A stretch of 64,000 nt of DNA from Methylacidiphilales bacterium. GTDB lineage: Bacteria; Verrucomicrobiota; Verrucomicrobiia; Methylacidiphilales; UBA1321. The position numbers were made by a program, and so were the translations under genes. Shown here one piece after another: positions 16,639-56,116 of this stretch. The notes beneath the pieces were generated by a model. That model saw only the letters and a list, made by a program, of their open reading frames with translations, was not told where the DNA came from and did no database searches. Numbering within the stretch: position 1 is the stretch's first letter; each line of letters starts with the position of its first letter. The stretch lies in NCBI GenBank assembly GCA_021272315.1, contig JAJSLI010000060.1:1-64000 (forward strand), read 5' to 3'.

Positions 16639-16780
16639 GGTTTTGAAGTTAGGAAAGAGACCGGCAGGTTGACGACTTCCATTTTGCATCCTGAATGATT
16701 GGCCCCGTATTGCTTGATTTGCCTTGATCTGCCTTGATTTCGTTGGAAATGAAGCGGTTGCACATGCGCCAAAATGGCCC

Positions 16781-16870
16781 GGTAGCCGTCACGATGGGAC
16801 GTGTTCCTCCCGGCGTTGGATATCCACGGTGCCAAGGGAAACATCCGCCGCTGGGACAGCGGCGGCTACC
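16781..16870. repeat. Interspersed palindromic element with GGTAGCC...GGCTACC ends
   Basis: ggtagccg (16781-16788) pairs with cggctacc (16863-16870); internal hairpin ccgccgctg-gga-cagcggcgg (16845-16865). Its first 35 nt recur as the reverse complement at 28272-28306 with 2 mismatches. Confidence 0.7.
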
Positions 16871-24624: not shown

Positions 24625-24996
24625 ATGGTTACGATCCGGACCTGCTTTTCTCTGCCGGAGGCCCAGGTGATCCAATCTCAATTGGGAGGCTCGGGGATCA
24701 AGGCTTTTATTCCGGACGAGTCCACGGTGCTCTGGGAAAATGCCATCGGCGGGATTCGCGTGCAGGTCTTGGAGGAGGATGCCGAGCGGGCCGCCGAAGT
24801 TTTGGACGAGACCGGCGCGGTTCATCCAAAAGAAGCCGCGAAATTCTGCCCTCGTTGCGGCGCACCTTTGCGGGAGTCCTACGGGTTAGGCCTCTATCTT
24901 AAGCTCGCGATCATGCTTTTGTTTTCGATGCCGATCCGCTCGAAGCCGAACTGGCGTTGTCCGAAATGCGGAATCATTTTCTCATCCCCGAGTTGA
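24625..24996 (+). CDS. DUF2007-like protein with C-terminal zinc ribbon
   Basis: MVTIRTCFSLPEAQVIQSQLGGSGIKAFIPDE...IRVQVLEEDAERAAEVLDE and CPRCGAPL...CPKCGIIF. Confidence 0.75.
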   Translation: MVTIRTCFSLPEAQVIQSQLGGSGIKAFIPDESTVLWENAIGGIRVQVLEEDAERAAEVLDETGAVHPKEAAKFCPRCGAPLRESYGLGLYLKLAIMLLFSMPIRSKPNWRCPKCGIIFSSPS

Positions 24997-25033
24997 ACTT
25001 GGGAACGAGGGGAAGAAACCCTGCCGCAAAGCT

Positions 25034-27427
25034 CTAAAAATTCTTCGGCACCCACTTCACGTCCTTCATCGGGCCGGTGCCGTGGTACTCGAAGATTTTG
25101 CTGATGGGATAGAGAAGGATGCCGAAGAGGGCATTGGCGTTGACGCGCATGTCGAGGTCGACCCTGTCCTTCATGAAGTTGTAGTTGCCGTTACCGATGA
25201 GGGCGAGGGTCTCGCTGCTGATGTTCATGTCGTCAGTGTGGACGAGTCCCTTGGCGACGGTGAAATGGCCGTGGGCGGCGTCGGCGGCGGAGAAGCCGGG
25301 AATGAGGGGCGTGAGCGAGCCGAGAAAGGGAATCTGGGTGATATCGCCGTTCTCGACCTTGATTTCACCTCCGCCGGTCATCGTCTCCATCTGGCCGATT
25401 TCGCCGGTGAAGTGGGCCTGGGTGTTGAGCTGGCCCGTCGATTTGTCATAGGAAAAGGCGCGGGCGGTGAATTTTTTGAAGTTCACCTTGCTCAAGTTGA
25501 GGTCGAGGGTGTAGGCGGCGGGATTTTCACGCAGGTCCATGTCGAGCACGCCGGTGAGGCCGCCGTCGTAGAAGCCGCACTTCTTCATGTCGACGGTCAG
25601 GCGGCGGTTCTTGAAGGTGAGCGTGCCGTTGGGTTCGTCGAAATTGAAAGGGATGCTGAAAAGGGTCCATCCCATCGGCGATTTCCCCTCCACTTCGACG
25701 AGCAGGTCGGTGTCGAGGTCCTTCTTGTCGCTCTGGAGATCGACCAGGCCGTTGGCGCGGACGGTGGGCGGACGGGAAAAATGATAGGGGGCGGTGTATT
25801 CGATGAACTTGGGCCCCATGACGGGGGCGACGGCCTGGACGTCGACCTGGGCGACGAAATTATTCAGCGCAACGGAGCGGTTCTTGAAATCGTAGACGAT
25901 GCCGCCCGTGCCCGCGCCCTCGGGGCGATGGACTTCGAGATTGGGCAGGTTGAGCTTCGAGTCGGCGAACGTGAAATCGGACGCGGCGGTGTCGAAGCCG
26001 GCGTTTTTATAGACGAATTTGTCGGCGGTGACCTTGCCCTTGACGGTCCAGACGCCGGGGTTCAACGCGGTGCCGGTGGCGGTGGCATCAATTTTTGGGC
26101 CGCCGTCCTGGAAGCTGCAACTGCCGAGGAAATTGTCCATCCCCTCCCCGAAAACGCCCTTGAGCACGGTGGGGGCGAGGTTGGAACTGATCCTGGCGTT
26201 GAGGCTGGGGACGTCCTGTGTGCTGTCGAAGGAGAATTCCAGGTCGACGTCCCCGGCCTGGCCCGCGATCTTGAGGCCTGAAATGAGCAGGCGCTTGCCG
26301 TCGTAGTGGACGGGGACGCTGAAGCGCGAGAAGGGAACGCCGTTGAAGGTGAAGTCGCGCCAGTCGAGATCGGCCTCGACATCGGCGTAGAAGCCCTGCC
26401 GCAGGTCAACGCGGACCAGCCCGGTCATGGCGGGCGAGGTGTTGGGGAAATCGAGCCGGCCCAGGGCCTGTCCGAGCGGTCCCGGAAACGCGGGCGCGAG
26501 CGTGGTGAAATCCATCGAGGAGGTGAACTGAAGTTCGGCGGAGTGCTCCGCGAGGTCCCACTCGCCGAAGGCGGTCAGCTCGCCGCGATCGAGGCCGATT
26601 TTGAAATCGTCGAGCGTGACGATGCCGTCGCTGAGGCTGCCGTGAATGGAAATTTCATCGACGGGCGCGGAACGCCAGGTGAGGCGGCGTCCGTTGAGGA
26701 CGAAGTTGGCGCGCCCGCCGCCGAGATCGCTGGTGGAGGTCTCGAAGTCGAGCTCGGCGTCGATGGGGTTCTCGGTGCCGATGTCGTCCATGGCGTCGCG
26801 CACGGCATGCCAGATGTCGACGTGCGCCTTGACTTGTTCTTCCCTCGAAAGCGGCGGCGGAGCGCCGGGGGGAGGCTTGGCCGGCGCCGACGGAAAGCCA
26901 TCGTTATGAATGATGCCACGGAGATAAAGCGCCATGTTGAGAAAGCGCGCCTGGGCATTTTGGATCTTGATGTCGCGCCCGTCGAAGGCGACGTCGGCGT
27001 TGACCTCGGTGAAATCGGCGGTGTCCTCCGGCCCGATGGGATAGCGGACGTCGGCGTTGGCGATGGCGGCGCCGTCGATGAAGCCGCGCCCCTGCCACCA
27101 GCTCAGCCACGCGATGCCGATGCGGATGCGGTCGATCAGCAGCATGACGCTCTGGCGGTTGGCATCGCGGTAAACGGTGACCCGTTCCGCGATGATGGCG
27201 CCGGTGGGACTGAGCAGCAGGCGATCGACGGCGAACGGAAACGGAAAGATGTGGCGCCGCTGGATTTCGTTCAGGACGTAATCTTTCGCCACCGGAGGCA
27301 GACCGAGAAAGCGCAGCCAGAGAACGACGACAAGCAGCGGCACGGAGACCGTGACGAGGGCGAGAAGACCCAGACGCGCCAGCAGACGCTTGAAGTAATC
27401 GCGGTAAGACGGCATGCCTCCACCCAT
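25034..27427 (-). CDS. AsmA-like large exported/membrane-anchored protein
   Basis: N-terminal TM (LLALVTVSVPLLVVVLWLRFLGL) then a long beta-rich region; AsmA-like C-terminus (GGGEIKVENGDITQIPFLGSLTPLIPGFSAADAAHGHFTVAKGLVHTDDMNISSETLALIGNGNYNFMKDRVDLDMRVNA). Confidence 0.75.
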   Translation of the reverse strand: MGGGMPSYRDYFKRLLARLGLLALVTVSVPLLVVVLWLRFLGLPPVAKDYVLNEIQRRHIFPFPFAVDRLLLSPTGAIIAERVTVYRDANRQSVMLLIDRIRIGIAWLSWWQGRGFIDGAAIANADVRYPIGPEDTADFTEVNADVAFDGRDIKIQNAQARFLNMALYLRGIIHNDGFPSAPAKPPPGAPPPLSREEQVKAHVDIWHAVRDAMDDIGTENPIDAELDFETSTSDLGGGRANFVLNGRRLTWRSAPVDEISIHGSLSDGIVTLDDFKIGLDRGELTAFGEWDLAEHSAELQFTSSMDFTTLAPAFPGPLGQALGRLDFPNTSPAMTGLVRVDLRQGFYADVEADLDWRDFTFNGVPFSRFSVPVHYDGKRLLISGLKIAGQAGDVDLEFSFDSTQDVPSLNARISSNLAPTVLKGVFGEGMDNFLGSCSFQDGGPKIDATATGTALNPGVWTVKGKVTADKFVYKNAGFDTAASDFTFADSKLNLPNLEVHRPEGAGTGGIVYDFKNRSVALNNFVAQVDVQAVAPVMGPKFIEYTAPYHFSRPPTVRANGLVDLQSDKKDLDTDLLVEVEGKSPMGWTLFSIPFNFDEPNGTLTFKNRRLTVDMKKCGFYDGGLTGVLDMDLRENPAAYTLDLNLSKVNFKKFTARAFSYDKSTGQLNTQAHFTGEIGQMETMTGGGEIKVENGDITQIPFLGSLTPLIPGFSAADAAHGHFTVAKGLVHTDDMNISSETLALIGNGNYNFMKDRVDLDMRVNANALFGILLYPISKIFEYHGTGPMKDVKWVPKNF

Positions 27428-27864: not shown

Positions 27865-27966
27865 CTCAAACTTTACCACTACCGGTTTTTGGCGGAATTG
27901 ACGGAACTTTTTCGGGGTGGGACTGTGGAAGCTTCCTGTGAAACAAATGCCGCGCTTTTTTTCCCT

Positions 27967-28006
27967 CGTTCCCAAGCTCCTGCGGAGGGCGGTAAACTTG
28001 GGAACG
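27967..28006. repeat. Hairpin repeat cgttcccaag...cttgggaacg
   Basis: 10-bp perfect inverted repeat (27967-27976/27997-28006); one arm recurs as cttgggaacgagg at 24998-25010. Confidence 0.7.
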
Positions 28007-28042
28007 TGGGCAACCAGAATGACCGCAACGCTGTCTTTTCTG

Positions 28043-28266
28043 CCAACCCCAACGGGGTTGGAATCCTATAGCCCAGGGTTGGCGCAGCAGCGCCTACCCT
28101 GGGTAAGCTCCCAAGCACCCAACCCTGAAAGGGTTGAAGCCAATTCAAACCAAACCCGTTGGGACATTGTTTCAACCCCTACAGGGTTGAAACGCTTTTT
28201 GCAGTTACCCAGGGTAGCGGCTTCGCCGCAACCCTGGGCTGAATGCTCACAACCCTTTCAGGGTTG
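28043..28266. repeat. Array of six hairpins with shared stem families (CAACCCT.../CCCAGGGT...)
   Basis: Hairpins at 28043-28061, 28072-28103, 28120-28136, 28170-28192, 28208-28238, 28250-28266; the two long ones share the outer stem cccagggt/accctggg. Confidence 0.9.
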
Positions 28267-28271
28267 TCCGT

Positions 28272-28306
28272 CGCCGGGAGGAACACGTCCCATCGCGACG
28301 GTTACC
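28272..28306. repeat. 35-nt interspersed repeat, second copy (inverted relative to 16781-16815)
   Basis: cgccgggaggaacacgtcccatcgcgacggttacc versus reverse complement of 16781-16815: 33/35 identical. Confidence 0.85.
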
Positions 28307-28345
28307 GCTGCACGCCGCAAGCGGCTGGGAATTTACCTGCAGAGA

Positions 28346-29710
28346 TTGAAATTTTGCCTGCGGCAGGCACACCGGCTTTTTTTATCGTGCTCCTTCGTCT
28401 GGTTCGCGGCCCTGTCGGCGGGCGCGGACGAAAACGAGGTCGTGGTCATCTCGCCCCATTGGGACGGGATCAAGGAAGAAACGGCGCGAGCGTTCCGTGC
28501 CTGGCATGAAAAGATGTACGGGCAGCCGGCGACGGTCCGCTGGCGCGAAGCGGGCGGCGGCGGGTCGCGCATCGTCAAATTGCTCGGCGCGGAATACGCC
28601 GCCCATCCCGACATCGGCATCGACGTGCTTTACGGGGGCGGCTTCGAGCCGTTCCAGGAACTGGAGAAAGCCGGCCTGCTGACGCCGTACGAGCCGCCCG
28701 AGGAAACGCTGGCGCAGATTCCGGCGGAGTTGAACGGGGCCCCGATCATCGACCCGAACCACGAGTGGTTCGGCGCGTGCCTGTCGGGATTCGGGATCAT
28801 CACCAACGAGCGGGCGCGGCAGGCGGCGGGGCTGCCGGTGGCGCGGACGTGGGCGGACCTGGCCGATCCGCGGCTGGCGGGTTGGATTTCAGCGTGCGAT
28901 CCGCGCGAGTCGAGCAGCGTGATGCAGATCGACGAGATCATCCTGCAATCGTGCGGCTGGGACAAGGGCTGGGGCGTTTTGATGGGGATGAGCGGCAACA
29001 CGCGCAATTTTCTTTCGTCGGCGCCGGCTTCGGCGGTGGAGGTGGGGATGGGCGACGCGGCCTACGGCGTCAACATCGATATGTACGGACAGGCGCAGGC
29101 CGGTTATTACGGAAGCGACAACGTCAACTTCGTGCTGCCCGAGGGGCAGACGGTGATCACGCCCGACGCCATCGCGATCCTCAAGAATCCGCCCCACCCG
29201 GAACTGGCGCGGCACTTCGTGCAATTCGTGCTGTCGCGCGAGGGGCAGACGCTCTGGATGGCCCCGTTGGGAGCGCCAGGCGGGGCGAAGCGTTACGCGA
29301 TCAACCGGATGAGCGTGTGGCCCGCGCTTTACGACGAACTGGCTGGCGTGACACCGATCCTGACGAATCCGTTCAAGGGCCCGCCCGCGTTCGTGATCTC
29401 GGACCAGCTCGGCTCCAAGCGGCGCACGATCCTGATGGCGCTGATCGCGGCGTGGATGATCGACACGCACGATGTCCTGGCCCGGGCGTGGAAGGCGCTG
29501 AACTCGCCCGCCGCGGAGAGGCTGCCTCCCGGTCGGCGGGAGGAGCTCCTGGCCCAATTTTTGGCTGCGCCGTGTTCAGAGGAGGAACTGCTCCGGCTCG
29601 TCGACACCGACTGGAAAGACCCGGTCAAGCGGACCGCCCTGGTGAACCAGTGGCAAGCCGAGGCGCTCGACCGGTACGAAAATTTGATCGCACAACTTGC
29701 GTCCCGGTGA
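28346..29710 (+). CDS. ABC transporter extracellular solute-binding protein (iron/AfuA-FbpA-like)
   Basis: Signal peptide followed by NEVVVISPHWDGIKEETARAFRAWHEKMYGQPATVRWREAGGGGSRIV...GVNIDMYGQAQAGYYGSDNVNFVLPEGQTVITPDAIAILKNPPHPELARHFVQFVLSREGQ. Probable TTG start near 28346; start uncertain. Confidence 0.85.
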   Translation: MKFCLRQAHRLFLSCSFVWFAALSAGADENEVVVISPHWDGIKEETARAFRAWHEKMYGQPATVRWREAGGGGSRIVKLLGAEYAAHPDIGIDVLYGGGFEPFQELEKAGLLTPYEPPEETLAQIPAELNGAPIIDPNHEWFGACLSGFGIITNERARQAAGLPVARTWADLADPRLAGWISACDPRESSSVMQIDEIILQSCGWDKGWGVLMGMSGNTRNFLSSAPASAVEVGMGDAAYGVNIDMYGQAQAGYYGSDNVNFVLPEGQTVITPDAIAILKNPPHPELARHFVQFVLSREGQTLWMAPLGAPGGAKRYAINRMSVWPALYDELAGVTPILTNPFKGPPAFVISDQLGSKRRTILMALIAAWMIDTHDVLARAWKALNSPAAERLPPGRREELLAQFLAAPCSEEELLRLVDTDWKDPVKRTALVNQWQAEALDRYENLIAQLASR

Positions 29711-49631: not shown

Positions 49632-52600
49632 ATGAGTCCTTCCCGGACGTTTATCCTGCGGCCTATCGCCACGATGCTTTTCATGGCGGCCATTTTGCTG
49701 GCCGGCTTCGTCGGCTATCAACAACTGCCGATCTCGGCGCTGCCTGAGGTCGATTATCCGACGATGCAAATCGTCACCTTTTATCCGGGCGCAAGCCCCG
49801 AAGTCATGGCGACGTCCGTCACCGCTCCGCTGGAGCGGCAGTTCGGCCAAGTGCCCGGATTACAACAGATGACCTCGACCAGTTCGGACGGCAGCTCCGT
49901 CATCACGCTCCAGTTCAGCCTCTCTCTTAATATCGATATTGCCGAGCAGGAGGTCCAGCAGGCCATCAACGCTTCGGGCACCTATCTCCCCGCCGACCTG
50001 CCGAATCCGCCGATCTATAGCAAAACAAATCCGGCCGACGCTCCGATCATGACCCTGGCTCTCACGTCGAAGACGCTGCCCTTGTCCCAAATCGAGGACT
50101 TGGCCGATACGCGGCTGGCGCAAAAGATCTCCCAGGTTTCGGGCGTCGGCCTGGTCAGCATCAACGGCGGCCAGAAGCCCGCCGTTCGCATCCAGGCCAA
50201 CCCGACCGCCCTCTCTTCCTACGGCATCAACCTGGAAGACATTCGCAATGCCATTGCCGCCGCCAACGTCAATCAGGCCAAGGGAAACTTTGACGGTCCG
50301 GCGCAGGATTATCAGGTCGGCGCCAACGATCAGCTGCTGGACAGCACCGGATACGCCAATCTCATCGTGGCATACTCCAACGGCGCGCCGGTGCGGCTCT
50401 CCGATGTCGCCGTGGTCAAGGACGCCACGGAGAACAACCTCCAGGCGGCATGGAAAAACACCACACCCGCCATCATTCTCAATGTGCAGCGGCAGCCCGG
50501 CGCGAATACCATCGCCGTGGTCGATGGCATCACCAAACTGCTGCCCAGGCTGCGCCAGTCGCTGCCTTCCTCTGTGGAACTCACCACCCTGACCGACCTC
50601 ACCGGCACCATCCGTGCTTCCGTGGACGACGTGAAATTCGAGTTGATGCTGACCATCGCGCTGGTCGTCGGCGTGATCTTCGTCTTTCTCCGCACCTTCG
50701 CCGCGACCTTCATCGCGGGCGTGGCCGTTCCCCTCTCGTTGGTCGGCGCCTTCGCCGCCATGTACCTGTGCGGCTTCAGCCTCGACAATCTTTCGCTTAT
50801 GGCTCTGACCATCTCGACCGGATTCGTGGTTGACGATGCCATCGTCATGATCGAGAACATCGTCCGCTACATCGAAAAGGGCGAGAAACCGCTCGACGCC
50901 GCTTTAAAGGGCGCGGGGCAGATCGGCTTCACGATCGTGGCGCTGACCATCTCCCTCATCGCGGTGCTCATTCCGCTGCTTTTTATGAGTGACATCGTGG
51001 GCCGTCTCTTTCGCGAGTTCGCCATCACGCTCAGTTTCACCATCCTGATCTCAGCCGTGGTTTCGCTGACGCTGACGCCCATGCTCTGCTCGCGACTGAT
51101 CAAGTCGAAGGAGGAAAGGAAGCCCGGACGTTTGTTTCAGCTCTCCGAAGATATCTTCAACGGCATCATTTCGTTTTACGGCGAAACGCTGAAAGTCGTT
51201 TTGCGCGTGCAGCCCCTCGTCCTGCTCATCGCCCTGGGCACCCTGGCACTGACCATCTTTCTCTATATTGAAATCCCCAAGGGCCTTTTTCCGATCCAAG
51301 ACACGGGCGTCATTCAGGGCGTATCCCAGGCCGATCAGAGCGTCTCCTTCGCGGCGATGTCGGAGCGTCAGCAGGCCCTGGCCGCCATCATTTTGCAGGA
51401 CCCCGCGGTCGAAAGCCTTTCGTCCTTTATCGGCGTGGATGGCACGAACCTGACGCTCAACAACGGACGCATCCAAATTAACCTCAAGCCGCTGGGCCAG
51501 CGCAAAATCAGCGCGAACGATCTCATCCCGCGGCTGCAGGCGGAACTGGCCAAGGTGCCGGGCATCACGCTTTACATGCAGCCGGTCCAGGATTTGACCG
51601 TGGATGATCGCGTCAGCCTCACCCAATACCAATACACGCTCGAGGACCCGAACCAGGACGAATTGAACACCTGGACATCGCAATTGCTGGCGAAATTGAA
51701 GACGCTGCCGCAACTGCGCGATGTGGCCAGCGACCAGCAAAATTCCGGGCTGCGCAGCAACCTTACCCTGGACCGCGACACCGCGTCGCGTCTTGGGCTG
51801 ACCACCTCGGTGATCGACAACACCCTCTACGATGCCTTCGGTCAGCGCCAGGTCTCGACCATCTTTACGCAGCTCAATCAGTATCACGTGATCCTCGAAG
51901 TCGATCCCGCCTACCAACAGGATCCCGGCGCCCTCGACCACATCTACATCACTCCGTCCGGCTCCACGACCGCGGCGGCCACCGCTTCCACGTCCAGCGG
52001 CGGCCCGAGTTTCGTCTCGAGCGGTGCAGCCTCGACCACCTCCGTTTCAACGGGTTCAAACGCCCCGATCGCCGCGCCGCTGAGCGCTTTTGCGCATTGG
52101 GACACCGAAGCCGGCGCGCTCACGGTGAACCATCAGGGGCAGTTTCCCGTGGTCACGATTTCGTTCAATCTGGCGCCAGGCGCTTCGCTCAGCGGCGCGG
52201 TCGATGCCATCAATCAAGCGAAGAAGGACCTGCATATGCCCGCGGGCATCAATGCCGCGTTCCAGGGAGAAACCCAGGCTTTTCAGGCTTCGCTGAGCAG
52301 CGAGCCGCTGCTGATCCTGGCAGCGGTGGTCACCGTTTACATCATTCTCGGTGTGCTCTACGAGAGTTTCATCCATCCCATTACGATTCTATCCACGCTT
52401 CCCTCCGCCGGGGTGGGCGCCCTGCTGGCGCTCATGCTTTTTCGCATCGACCTGACGGTTGTCGCGATCATCGGCATTATTCTGCTCATCGGCATCGTGC
52501 AAAAGAACGCGATCATGATGGTCGATTTCGCGCTGGCGGCGGAACGCGAGGAGGGCTTGGAACCGCAGGAGGCGATCTTTCAGGCGTGTCTCCTGCGCTT

Positions 52601-52880
52601 TCGTCCCATCCTGATGACCACCCTGGCCGCGATGTTCGGCGGCCTTCCACTGGCGCTTGGCACGGGTACCGGGGCGGAGCTTCGCCGTCCCTTGGGAGTC
52701 GCCATCGTCGGAGGCTTGATCCTCAGCCAGTTGCTGACGCTTTACACCACACCCGTCATCTATCTCGCCTTCGACCGACTCGGGCGCTGGTCTATTTTTG
52801 GCCGCATCAAGCTACACCCCGAGACTGAAACCGCGGGAGAGATGCCGGAGCCTCCACCCATGGGAGCCGAGAGCCCATGA
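49632..52880 (+). CDS. RND multidrug efflux permease (MdtB-like)
   Basis: [92 protein letters not shown]; 1082 aa. Confidence 0.95.
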
Positions 52881-55800
52881 ACATTTCGGAGCCGTTTGTC
52901 CGACGCCCCATCGGCACCATGCTTCTGACCGCCGCCATCGCTCTGGCCGGAGGCGTGGCGTATTATCTCCTGCCCGTTGCGCCCCTTCCCCAGGTTGATT
53001 ATCCCACGATTTCGGTCGGCGCCAGCCTGCCCGGCGCCAGCCCGCAGACCATGGCCGCCTCGGTGGCAACGCCGCTGGAGCGCTCGTTCGGACGGATCGC
53101 GGGCGTTACGGAGATGACGTCTTCGAGCGGTCTGGGCTCAACCAGCGTCACCATGCAATTCGACCTGAGCCGGGACATTGACGGAGCGGCCCGCGACGTT
53201 GAAGCCGCCATCAACGCGGCGCGGGGCAATCTGCCTTCCGATCTCCCGAGCAATCCAAGCTACCGGAAAGTCAACCCGGCCGACTCGCCCATCATGATTG
53301 TGGCGCTGACCTCCGATACCTACTCCAAGGGCCAGATGTACGACTCGGCCTCGACCGTTCTGGCCCAAAAGCTCTCGCAAATCAACGGCGTGGGGCAGGT
53401 CACCGTCGGCGGGAGTTCGCTGCCCGCCGTGCGGGTGGAATTAAATCCGTTGGCGCTGAACAAGTACGGGATCGGCCTTGAGACTGTGCGCACCGCGCTC
53501 TCCGGCGCGAACGCCAACGTGCCCAAGGGCCACTTCGCCAACGACAGCCATACCTGGACCATCCAGGACAACGACCAGCTTTTCAAGGCGGTCGACTACG
53601 CGCCGCTGATTATAGCTTATCACAATTCCGCCCCGGTTAAGGTCGGGGACGTAGCGCAGGTCGTCGACTCGGTGGCCGACGTCCGCAATGCCGGCTATGC
53701 CAACGGCAAGCCTTCGGTCCTCCTGATTATTTTTCGCCAACCCGGCGCCAACATCATCGGGACGGTGGGCCGCATCAAGGCCATCCTGCCCCTGCTGCAG
53801 GCGGAAATCCCCCAGGGTATAAAACTCACCGTGATGATGGACCAGACGACGACGATCACAGCCTCCATCCGGGACGTGGAGCGCACTCTGCTTATCGCCG
53901 TGGCCCTGGTCATCCTGGTGGTCTTCGTCTTTCTGCGCGATGTCCGCACCATGCTCATCCCCGGCATCGCAGTCCCGGTCTCCCTCATCGGCACCTTTGG
54001 CGTGATGTACCTGTGCGGCTTCAGCCTCGACAATCTCTCGCTCATGGCCCTGACGATCTCGACCGGCTTCGTCGTCGATGACGCCATCGTCGTTACGGAA
54101 AACATCACCCGCTATCTGGAAAAGGGCATGGCACCGCTGGAGGCGGCTTTGCGGGGCTCCCGGGAGATCGGCTTCACCGTTCTTTCCATCAGCCTTTCGC
54201 TCATTGCCGTCTTCACGCCGATCCTGCTCATGGGCGGCCTCATTGGGCGGCTCTTTCGCGAATTTGCCGTCACCCTTTCGGCGGCCATCCTGATTTCGAT
54301 GGTAATTTCGCTCACCACGACCCCGATGATGTGCGCCCTGCTGCTGAAACCTGAAAAGGAGCATTCCCACGGAAAAATTTTTCACCTATCGGAATCGATT
54401 TTCAACTGGGTGCTGCGATTCTACGAGATTACCCTGCGCCGGGTGCTGCTCCATCCGGCGATCACGCTGCTGGTTCTCATCGCCCTGGTTGTCCTCAACG
54501 GCTATCTCTTTTGCATAGCGTCCTACGGACTTTTCCCGCAGCAGGACACGGGGCGTCTCAACGGCAACGTTACCGCCGACCAGGACACCTCCTTCCAAGC
54601 CATGAATGTCCAGATGCAGCAGATGATCAAGATCGTCCAGGCCGATCCCGGCGTCGCCAACGTGGTGGGATTCACCGGCGGGAGCTCGACGAACACCGCG
54701 CGGTTCTTCATCACCTTGAAGCCGTTGGGCCAGCGTGGAGGGCAGATTGGGTTTTGGCAGAGGATCAAGAATGACGTTCAATCGCTGTTCCAGACCCGCT
54801 CAGCTCCTTCGTCCGCTACTCCGTCGACTGGGCCATCGCCTTCGACTGCCTCCGGCGACGACAGCGCCGATGTCATCATCGGCCGGCTCCGGCCCAAGCT
54901 GGCTCACATCCCCGGGGCGACGCTCATTTTGCAGTCCTCCCAGGATCTTCGCACCGGCGGCCGGATGAGCAGCGCTCAGTATCAGTACACGCTGCAGAGT
55001 GATGACTATAATGACGTGTTGGAGTGGGGGCCGAAACTTCTGGCTGCCTTGCAGAAGGACCCCATCCTTACCGACGTCAACAGTGACCAACAGAACAATG
55101 GAAAGCAGGCGTTGCTGACCTATGACCGGGACACCGCGGCGCGTTTCGGCATCACCGCGGAACTGCTCGATAACACCCTTTATGATGCCTTTGGCCAAAG
55201 ACCGGTGGCGGTGATGTACACGGCATTCAACCAATACCAGGTGATCATGGAGGCGGCGCCACAGTACTGGCAGAATCCCTCGGGGCTGCGCGACATTTAT
55301 GTCCTCTCCGCCGGCGGGACGGAAGTTCCGCTCAGTGCGCTGAGCCACTATGCGACCACCACCGCTCCACTGACGATCAATCACCAGGGCCAGTTCCCCT
55401 GTGTAACTCTTTCCTTCAACCTGACGCCGGGGAAGGCTCTGGGCGACGCGGTCAACGCGATCAACCAGGCCCAACAGCAGATCGGCATGCCGGCGACAGT
55501 CCGGGGCGGCTTTGCGGGGACGGCCCAGGTCTTTCAGGCATCGCTGGCCAACGAGCCGATCCTGATCGGGACGGCCCTTTTGGCCGTCTATATCATTCTG
55601 GGAATTTTATACGAAAGTTTCATTCACCCGATCACGATCCTTTCGACCATCCCCTCGGCGAGCGTGGGTGCATTACTGGCCCTGAAGCTGACCGGAACCG
55701 AAGTGAGCATGCTCGCGGTCATTGGCTTGATTCTGCTCATCGGCATTGTGAAGAAGAACGCGATCATGATGATCGATTTCGCCCTGGCGGCGGAACGGAC

Positions 55801-56116
55801 GGAGGGGAAGAATCCCCGGGAGGCGATATTCGAGGCATGCCAACTGCGCTTCCGACCGATCATGATGACGACCATGGCGGCAATGTTTGGCGCCCTTCCC
55901 CTGGCGCTCGACACCGGCACCGGAGCCGAACTTCGCCGTCCGCTCGGCATCGCCATCATCGGCGGCCTGATCATGAGCCAGGCGCTGACGCTCTACACCA
56001 CGCCGGTGGTTTATCTCTACTGGGAACGCCTAGGCCTCTGGTTCAGACGCCTCTTCTTCAGACAGGCCCCGGAAAAAGAGCGGGACGAGGGATTGCCTCT
56101 GGGCCAGGAAACATAG
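52877..56116 (+). CDS. RND multidrug efflux permease (MdtC-like)
   Basis: [85 protein letters not shown] overlap with the preceding gene. Confidence 0.95.

Follow-up and report, generated by a model that had tools for sequence, protein, structure and literature searches.

REP and REPIN families are recognised by a GTAG (GT[AG]G) foot and usually exceed 100 copies per genome. The ends of IS200/IS605 elements are also hairpins, with a guide sequence on their 5' side (PMC8266576). Within the TnpA_Y1 transposases, subclass 1.2 is tabulated by Quentin et al. (2018) with the motifs DH[IV]H, WQ and Y---Q--HH and a "no" under REP; its members generally lack IS200 terminal structures and come mostly from Cyanobacteria and Bacteroidetes (PMC6006769). 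The described TIRYTs are class 2 enzymes (2.1, 2.2 and 2.5), not 1.2, according to the same authors (PMC6006769). A search of the open-access REPIN, RAYT and IS200 literature found nothing on the partner DNA of subclass 1.2, nor any relevant paper on the hairpin sequences described here, and the novelty of the pairing proposed below is judged against that same literature.

The window analysed in this study is a stretch of 64 kb (contig JAJSLI010000060.1, positions 1 to 64,000, assembly GCA_021272315.1) from a 3.83-Mb host genome in 169 contigs that is 91% complete. Between an AsmA-like gene (25034-27427, - strand; its label rests on the sequence itself rather than on a family search) and an ABC solute-binding gene lies a compact array of hairpins (Table 1). 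All six hairpins of the initial annotation were found where it had placed them, within 28043-28267, and the order that it gave, short-long-short twice over, is correct; covariance-model matches on the + and - strands refine it to one unit followed by an inverted copy of itself. Each of the two units is ~97 nt long and consists of an S1 hairpin, a (T/C)AG foot, a long hairpin L, in which a T.T mismatch is conserved, and an S2 hairpin. In unit A, a 10-base link with TATAG at its end separates S1 from L, and a short link joins L to S2. Neither stem family had a further match in the 64-kb window, and an Rfam search for CRISPR or other RNA families gave best matches to the array far under the gathering scores.

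We interpret the array, with a probability of roughly 0.87, as a non-autonomous REPIN/MITE-like mobile element made of the ends of a subclass 1.2 Y1 transposon without its tnpA. The full transposon would have the form [S1-nAG-L-S2]-tnpA-[inverted S2-L-nAG-S1], and the array would represent both inverted three-hairpin ends, with the HUH/Y1 transposase gene tnpA missing.

Table 1. Features of the hairpin array in window coordinates.
Feature	Position	Strand	Basis
Unit A (S1 - TATAG - L - S2)	28043..28139	+	Covariance-model match, 100.1 bits, E 1.6e-18
S1 hairpin, unit A: CCAACCCC-AAC-GGGGTTGG	28043..28061	+	Sequence; S1 stems covary over 82 distinct units
TATAG foot directly 5' of L, unit A	28067..28071	+	(T/C)AG in 79/82 units, mostly TATAG
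L hairpin, unit A: CCCAGGGT-T-GGCGC-AGCA-GCGCC-T-ACCCTGGG, 1x1 T.T mismatch	28072..28103	+	T.T mismatch kept in 79/81 parsable units
S2 hairpin, unit A: CAACCCT-GAA-AGGGTTG	28120..28136	+	Sequence and covariation
Spacer between units A and B, 30 nt; related elements have the transposase gene here	28140..28169	.	
Unit B, inverted copy	28170..28267	-	Covariance-model match, 92.5 bits, E 7.5e-17
S2 hairpin, unit B (S2')	28169..28193	-	Sequence, fold
L hairpin, unit B (L'), - strand CCCAGGGTTGCGGCGAAGCCGCTACCCTGGG	28208..28238	-	Sequence
Foot, unit B, TTCAG on the - strand	28239..28243	-	Sequence
S1 hairpin, unit B (S1')	28249..28267	-	Sequence

The 231-nt array stretch folds far more stably than shuffled sequence, both as DNA (-78.9 vs -35.3 kcal/mol, z -12.2) and as RNA (-126.2 vs -75.8 kcal/mol, z -9.9); for both, no shuffle out of 200 reached the value of the real sequence. 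Across 82 distinct units, aligned by fitting to the covariance model and thus in a manner that favours structure, the covariation score was 0.281, against 0.106 in shuffled alignments and at most 0.060 with the partners slid; 97.0% of cells were paired and 12 pairs had changed on both sides. S1 alone occurred as 42 distinct sequences, nearly all of them still palindromic (97.3% of S1 cells paired). Pairing-preserving stem variation had been noticed in the array itself, and copies elsewhere do have compensatory pairs. Part of this covariation could have arisen without selection if imperfect palindromes are corrected during replication.

The array is not unique. A DNA search together with the covariance model gave 14 good units in the host genome, the array's two included, mostly as inverted pairs; this is a low number for a REP family. 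An additional copy on contig C73 is interrupted by an insertion, which splits the long hairpin (L016/L058, C73:34142-34297) and brings in another repeat-like stretch, CATTCTGAGCGAGCGCAGCGATGTCGAAGAATG. Unit matches were present in 14 of 60 relatives: the same-genus genomes G002, G007 and G006 had 64, 50 and 10 model matches, and a genome from a different genus in the family and one from a different family had ~30 each, some antisense double matches being included in all of these counts. At the 52 loci examined for arrangement there were 32 foot-outside (HH) dimers, one TT dimer and 20 apparently single units. Four host-genome dimers have a single S2 common to both units, and the spacers of most other dimers measure 17-30 nt. 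Model matches on C13, C56, C8 and at C135:62375 were rejected as array-type units, as their long stem, CCGGTGG, is that of a second sub-family with dispersed copies in the host genome (C13:24796, C56:13611, C8:25569, C135:62375) and a tnpA at C2:12502-12942.

The link to a transposase comes from two same-genus genomes. At G007:C7, G007:C60, G002:C14 and G002:C40 an inverted unit pair brackets an intact 151-aa transposase ORF, which starts ~30 nt after S2 and ends at S2'; the units of these four pairs are 484-489 nt apart, compared with ~20 nt in others. Two of the 151-aa proteins scored 57.8 and 63.6 bits against the IS200 transposase model (cut-off 55), and the same two had no match to the RAYT model (≤19.5 bits, cut-off 80). 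The family profile also matches solved IS200/IS605-type transposases, including ISHp608 TnpA, and the motifs DHVH, WQ and YIxxQxxHH are invariant across eight aligned transposases. By motifs and length, the predicted array-type transposase matches TnpA_Y1 subclass 1.2 and is IS200-like. The array, which has no adjacent tnpA, would belong to this group as a non-autonomous derivative of the G002 and G007 elements. The sole subclass 1.2 transposase of the host genome is that on C2, with its own CCGGTGG ends, and no tnpA matching the array's units was found in the 91% of the genome that is present; the cognate gene may have been lost or may lie in the missing 9%. Since the C2 ends are of a different sub-family and no array-type tnpA was found, trans-mobilisation within the host genome is only putative, which counts against the main reading.

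The same arrangement recurs in other phyla. A genome-collection scan yielded at least 570 relatives, of which the best 80 formed the homologue set. These 80 come foremost from Verrucomicrobia subdivision 3/Limisphaerales and next from Planctomycetes, followed by Hydrogenedentota, Armatimonadetes, Acidobacteria, Lentisphaerae, Sumerlaeota, Bacteroidales and others; as most are metagenome-assembled genomes, individual taxon assignments may be wrong. DHxH is present in 77 of the 80 and YIxxQxxHH in 75, YxxxNP in none, and WQ was prescribed by the search pattern. In an automated test, 64 of the 80 loci showed an AG-footed L accompanied by one or more short hairpins and 50 showed the complete triple, which occurred in 0/800 shuffles and 0/70 far flanks. 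Where the foot was not prescribed, AG stood directly before 82 of 104 long hairpins, against a background of 5.7%. The flanks of the homologue loci are inverted repeats: upstream and reverse-complemented downstream flanks aligned with scores of mostly 40-158, compared with a median of 22 and a 99th percentile of 58 for mispaired flanks. As a control, 18 Y1 transposases that lack the 1.2 motif were taken from the same order; their flanks were not inverted (scores 14-23), and four 1.2-motif members in this comparison scored 54-110. Within a set of 61 genomes, unit matches occurred in all eight with a full-length 1.2 transposase vs 6 of the 53 others (hypergeometric p ~1e-6, calculated by hand and ignoring phylogeny). 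Plasmid records contained only two distant homologues.

It is very unlikely that the array belongs to a classical GTAG REP/BIME family moved by a class 2 RAYT (TnpA-REP). The hairpin with its 5' nTAG foot and central mismatch, the inverted dimers and two candidate RAYT-type Y1 genes in the host genome (C8, C165) would all suit such a family. However, the covariance model placed no unit within 1.5 kb of either gene, whereas units directly abut subclass 1.2 transposases; the flanked transposase is recognised by the IS200 model, fails the RAYT model and lacks YxxxNP, and the foot is YAG, not GTAG. The initial annotation had called the array REP/BIME-like and had proposed looking for a linked RAYT or Y1 transposase. 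The likeness holds for the dispersed copies, the inverted dimers, the pairing-preserving variation and the Y1 link, which was found in relatives, but the enzyme is IS200-like and not a RAYT.

A GTAG-type repeat may nonetheless be present next to the array. The 35-nt repeat at 28271-28306 has only one other good copy in the host genome (16780-16815), with no array beside it, indicating that it is a separate element; its supposed fusion to the array is thus not a conserved feature. Its reverse complement reads GTAA (28271-28306) or GTAG (16780-16815), followed by CCGTC(G/A)CGATGGGACGTGTTCCTCCCGGCG, and it is possibly a minor GTAG-type REP. No convincing copy was found at the RAYT genes on C8 and C165, and with just two good copies its assignment to these RAYTs is tentative.

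That the array is a cis-acting RNA element of the ABC solute-binding gene, be it mRNA stabiliser, terminator or leader, is most improbable, despite its strong RNA fold and the short distance, ~80 nt, from its end to the probable start codon (near 28349). The one terminator-like match (a GC-rich hairpin with a T-run, 28168-28194) is weak, and such matches are no commoner than in shuffles, where 1.6 are expected. Unit copies adjoin unrelated genes. In five same-genus genomes the AsmA-like and ABC solute-binding genes are apparently adjacent with no unit present, and where both starts are readable the intergenic gap is ~90-130 bp, compared with ~920 bp here. The array is missing from this orthologous region in relatives that retain the gene pair with a short gap, which indicates that the array and other repeats were inserted in this lineage and are not a conserved leader; neither an exact empty site nor the junction of the insertion was recovered. 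A leader RNA of the ABC gene was rejected on the same orthologues, and the proximity to the transporter gene mentioned by the initial annotation is incidental. The array could still have a secondary effect on transcripts, and the terminator-like match speaks neither for nor against a role in termination.

Other features of the region deserve mention. An ORF at 27917-29710 is open right across the array, so that automatic calling may wrongly lengthen the ABC solute-binding gene into the hairpins. Another repeat, CCCTCGTTCCCAAGCTCC..., occurs at 27956-28013, just upstream of the array and part of the enlarged intergenic region, at 24995-25018 and also at L010. Further along the window, 50653-55823 contains two pairs of 300-nt direct repeats with 73% identity and a spacing of ~3.25 kb, which are probably two paralogous neighbouring genes.

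It is hardly credible that the units are passive cargo of a MITE with IS5-like ends (CTAGGG.CTGTTNACACTA) and not mobile themselves, as such ends enclose six G007 dimers or units and one host-genome dimer among the fetched loci but are not found around most dimers, including the array at 28043-28267, and units flank tnpA in many phyla. The enclosed loci (L220-L223, L225 and L226 in G007, L002 in the host genome) lie within a larger IS5-like MITE, whose ends resemble CTAGGGNCTGTTNACACTA...TAGTGTNAACAGGCCCTAG and which has the hairpin dimer as content, and some of the spread of the dimers may therefore be hitch-hiking.

For a subclass 1.2 transposon that has lost its tnpA, we infer mobility and cleavage by analogy with IS608 and TnpA-REP (PMC8266576). 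The transposase would attach to L in its folded single-stranded form, and the foot would position cleavage. The YAG foot and the T.T asymmetry may serve it as recognition signals, a role much like that of GTAG and a bulge for TnpA-REP; it may cut and rejoin single strands and so move dimers in trans. Because the ends are inverted, each strand carries one of them in sense orientation, which is also the case in REPINs. More broadly, we lean towards the view that subclass 1.2 Y1 transposases are not solitary genes but the enzymes of widespread, largely unrecognised single-strand transposons. These would have inverted ends of three hairpins with a YAG foot, occur in several phyla and also seed non-autonomous dimers, forming a third Y1-hairpin pairing beside IS200/IS605 and RAYT/REPIN. 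Such a pairing would at once offer a testable substrate for subclass 1.2, suggest a route from an IS200-like ancestor to inverted REPIN-like dimers, and account for hairpin repeats in Verrucomicrobia and Planctomycetes that are otherwise easily taken for regulatory RNA or something CRISPR-like.

Like REP/REPIN/BIME repeats with TnpA-REP (RAYT), and like REPtrons, array-type units are short imperfect palindromes with a 5' nTAG foot and a mismatch, dispersed as inverted dimers, and their cognate Y1 transposase is flanked by the same repeats. They differ in having three hairpins, a YAG foot (a literal GTAG foot is confined to some related sub-families, e.g. L282), modest copy numbers that stay below 100 even in the relative with most model matches (64), and a transposase of IS200-like subclass 1.2, not class 2 (Y---NP). 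The transposase is homologous to that of IS200/IS605 elements (IS608, ISDra2); unlike the ends of those elements, array-type ends are inverted repeats of three hairpins each, and the 18 non-1.2 control loci had no inverted flanks. TIRtrons/TIRYTs (Di Nocera et al., 2013; PMC3733652) likewise have a Y1 transposase between long TIRs, sometimes double-palindromic, that also occur as dispersed repeats; the text examined describes no triple S1-YAG-L-S2 layout for them. With TnpA_Y1 subclass 1.2 (PMC6006769) the enzyme shares DHxH, WQ, YIxxQxxHH, a length of ~150 aa and few copies per genome; unlike the published members, those described here have inverted triple-hairpin ends and their best matches in Verrucomicrobia and other phyla.
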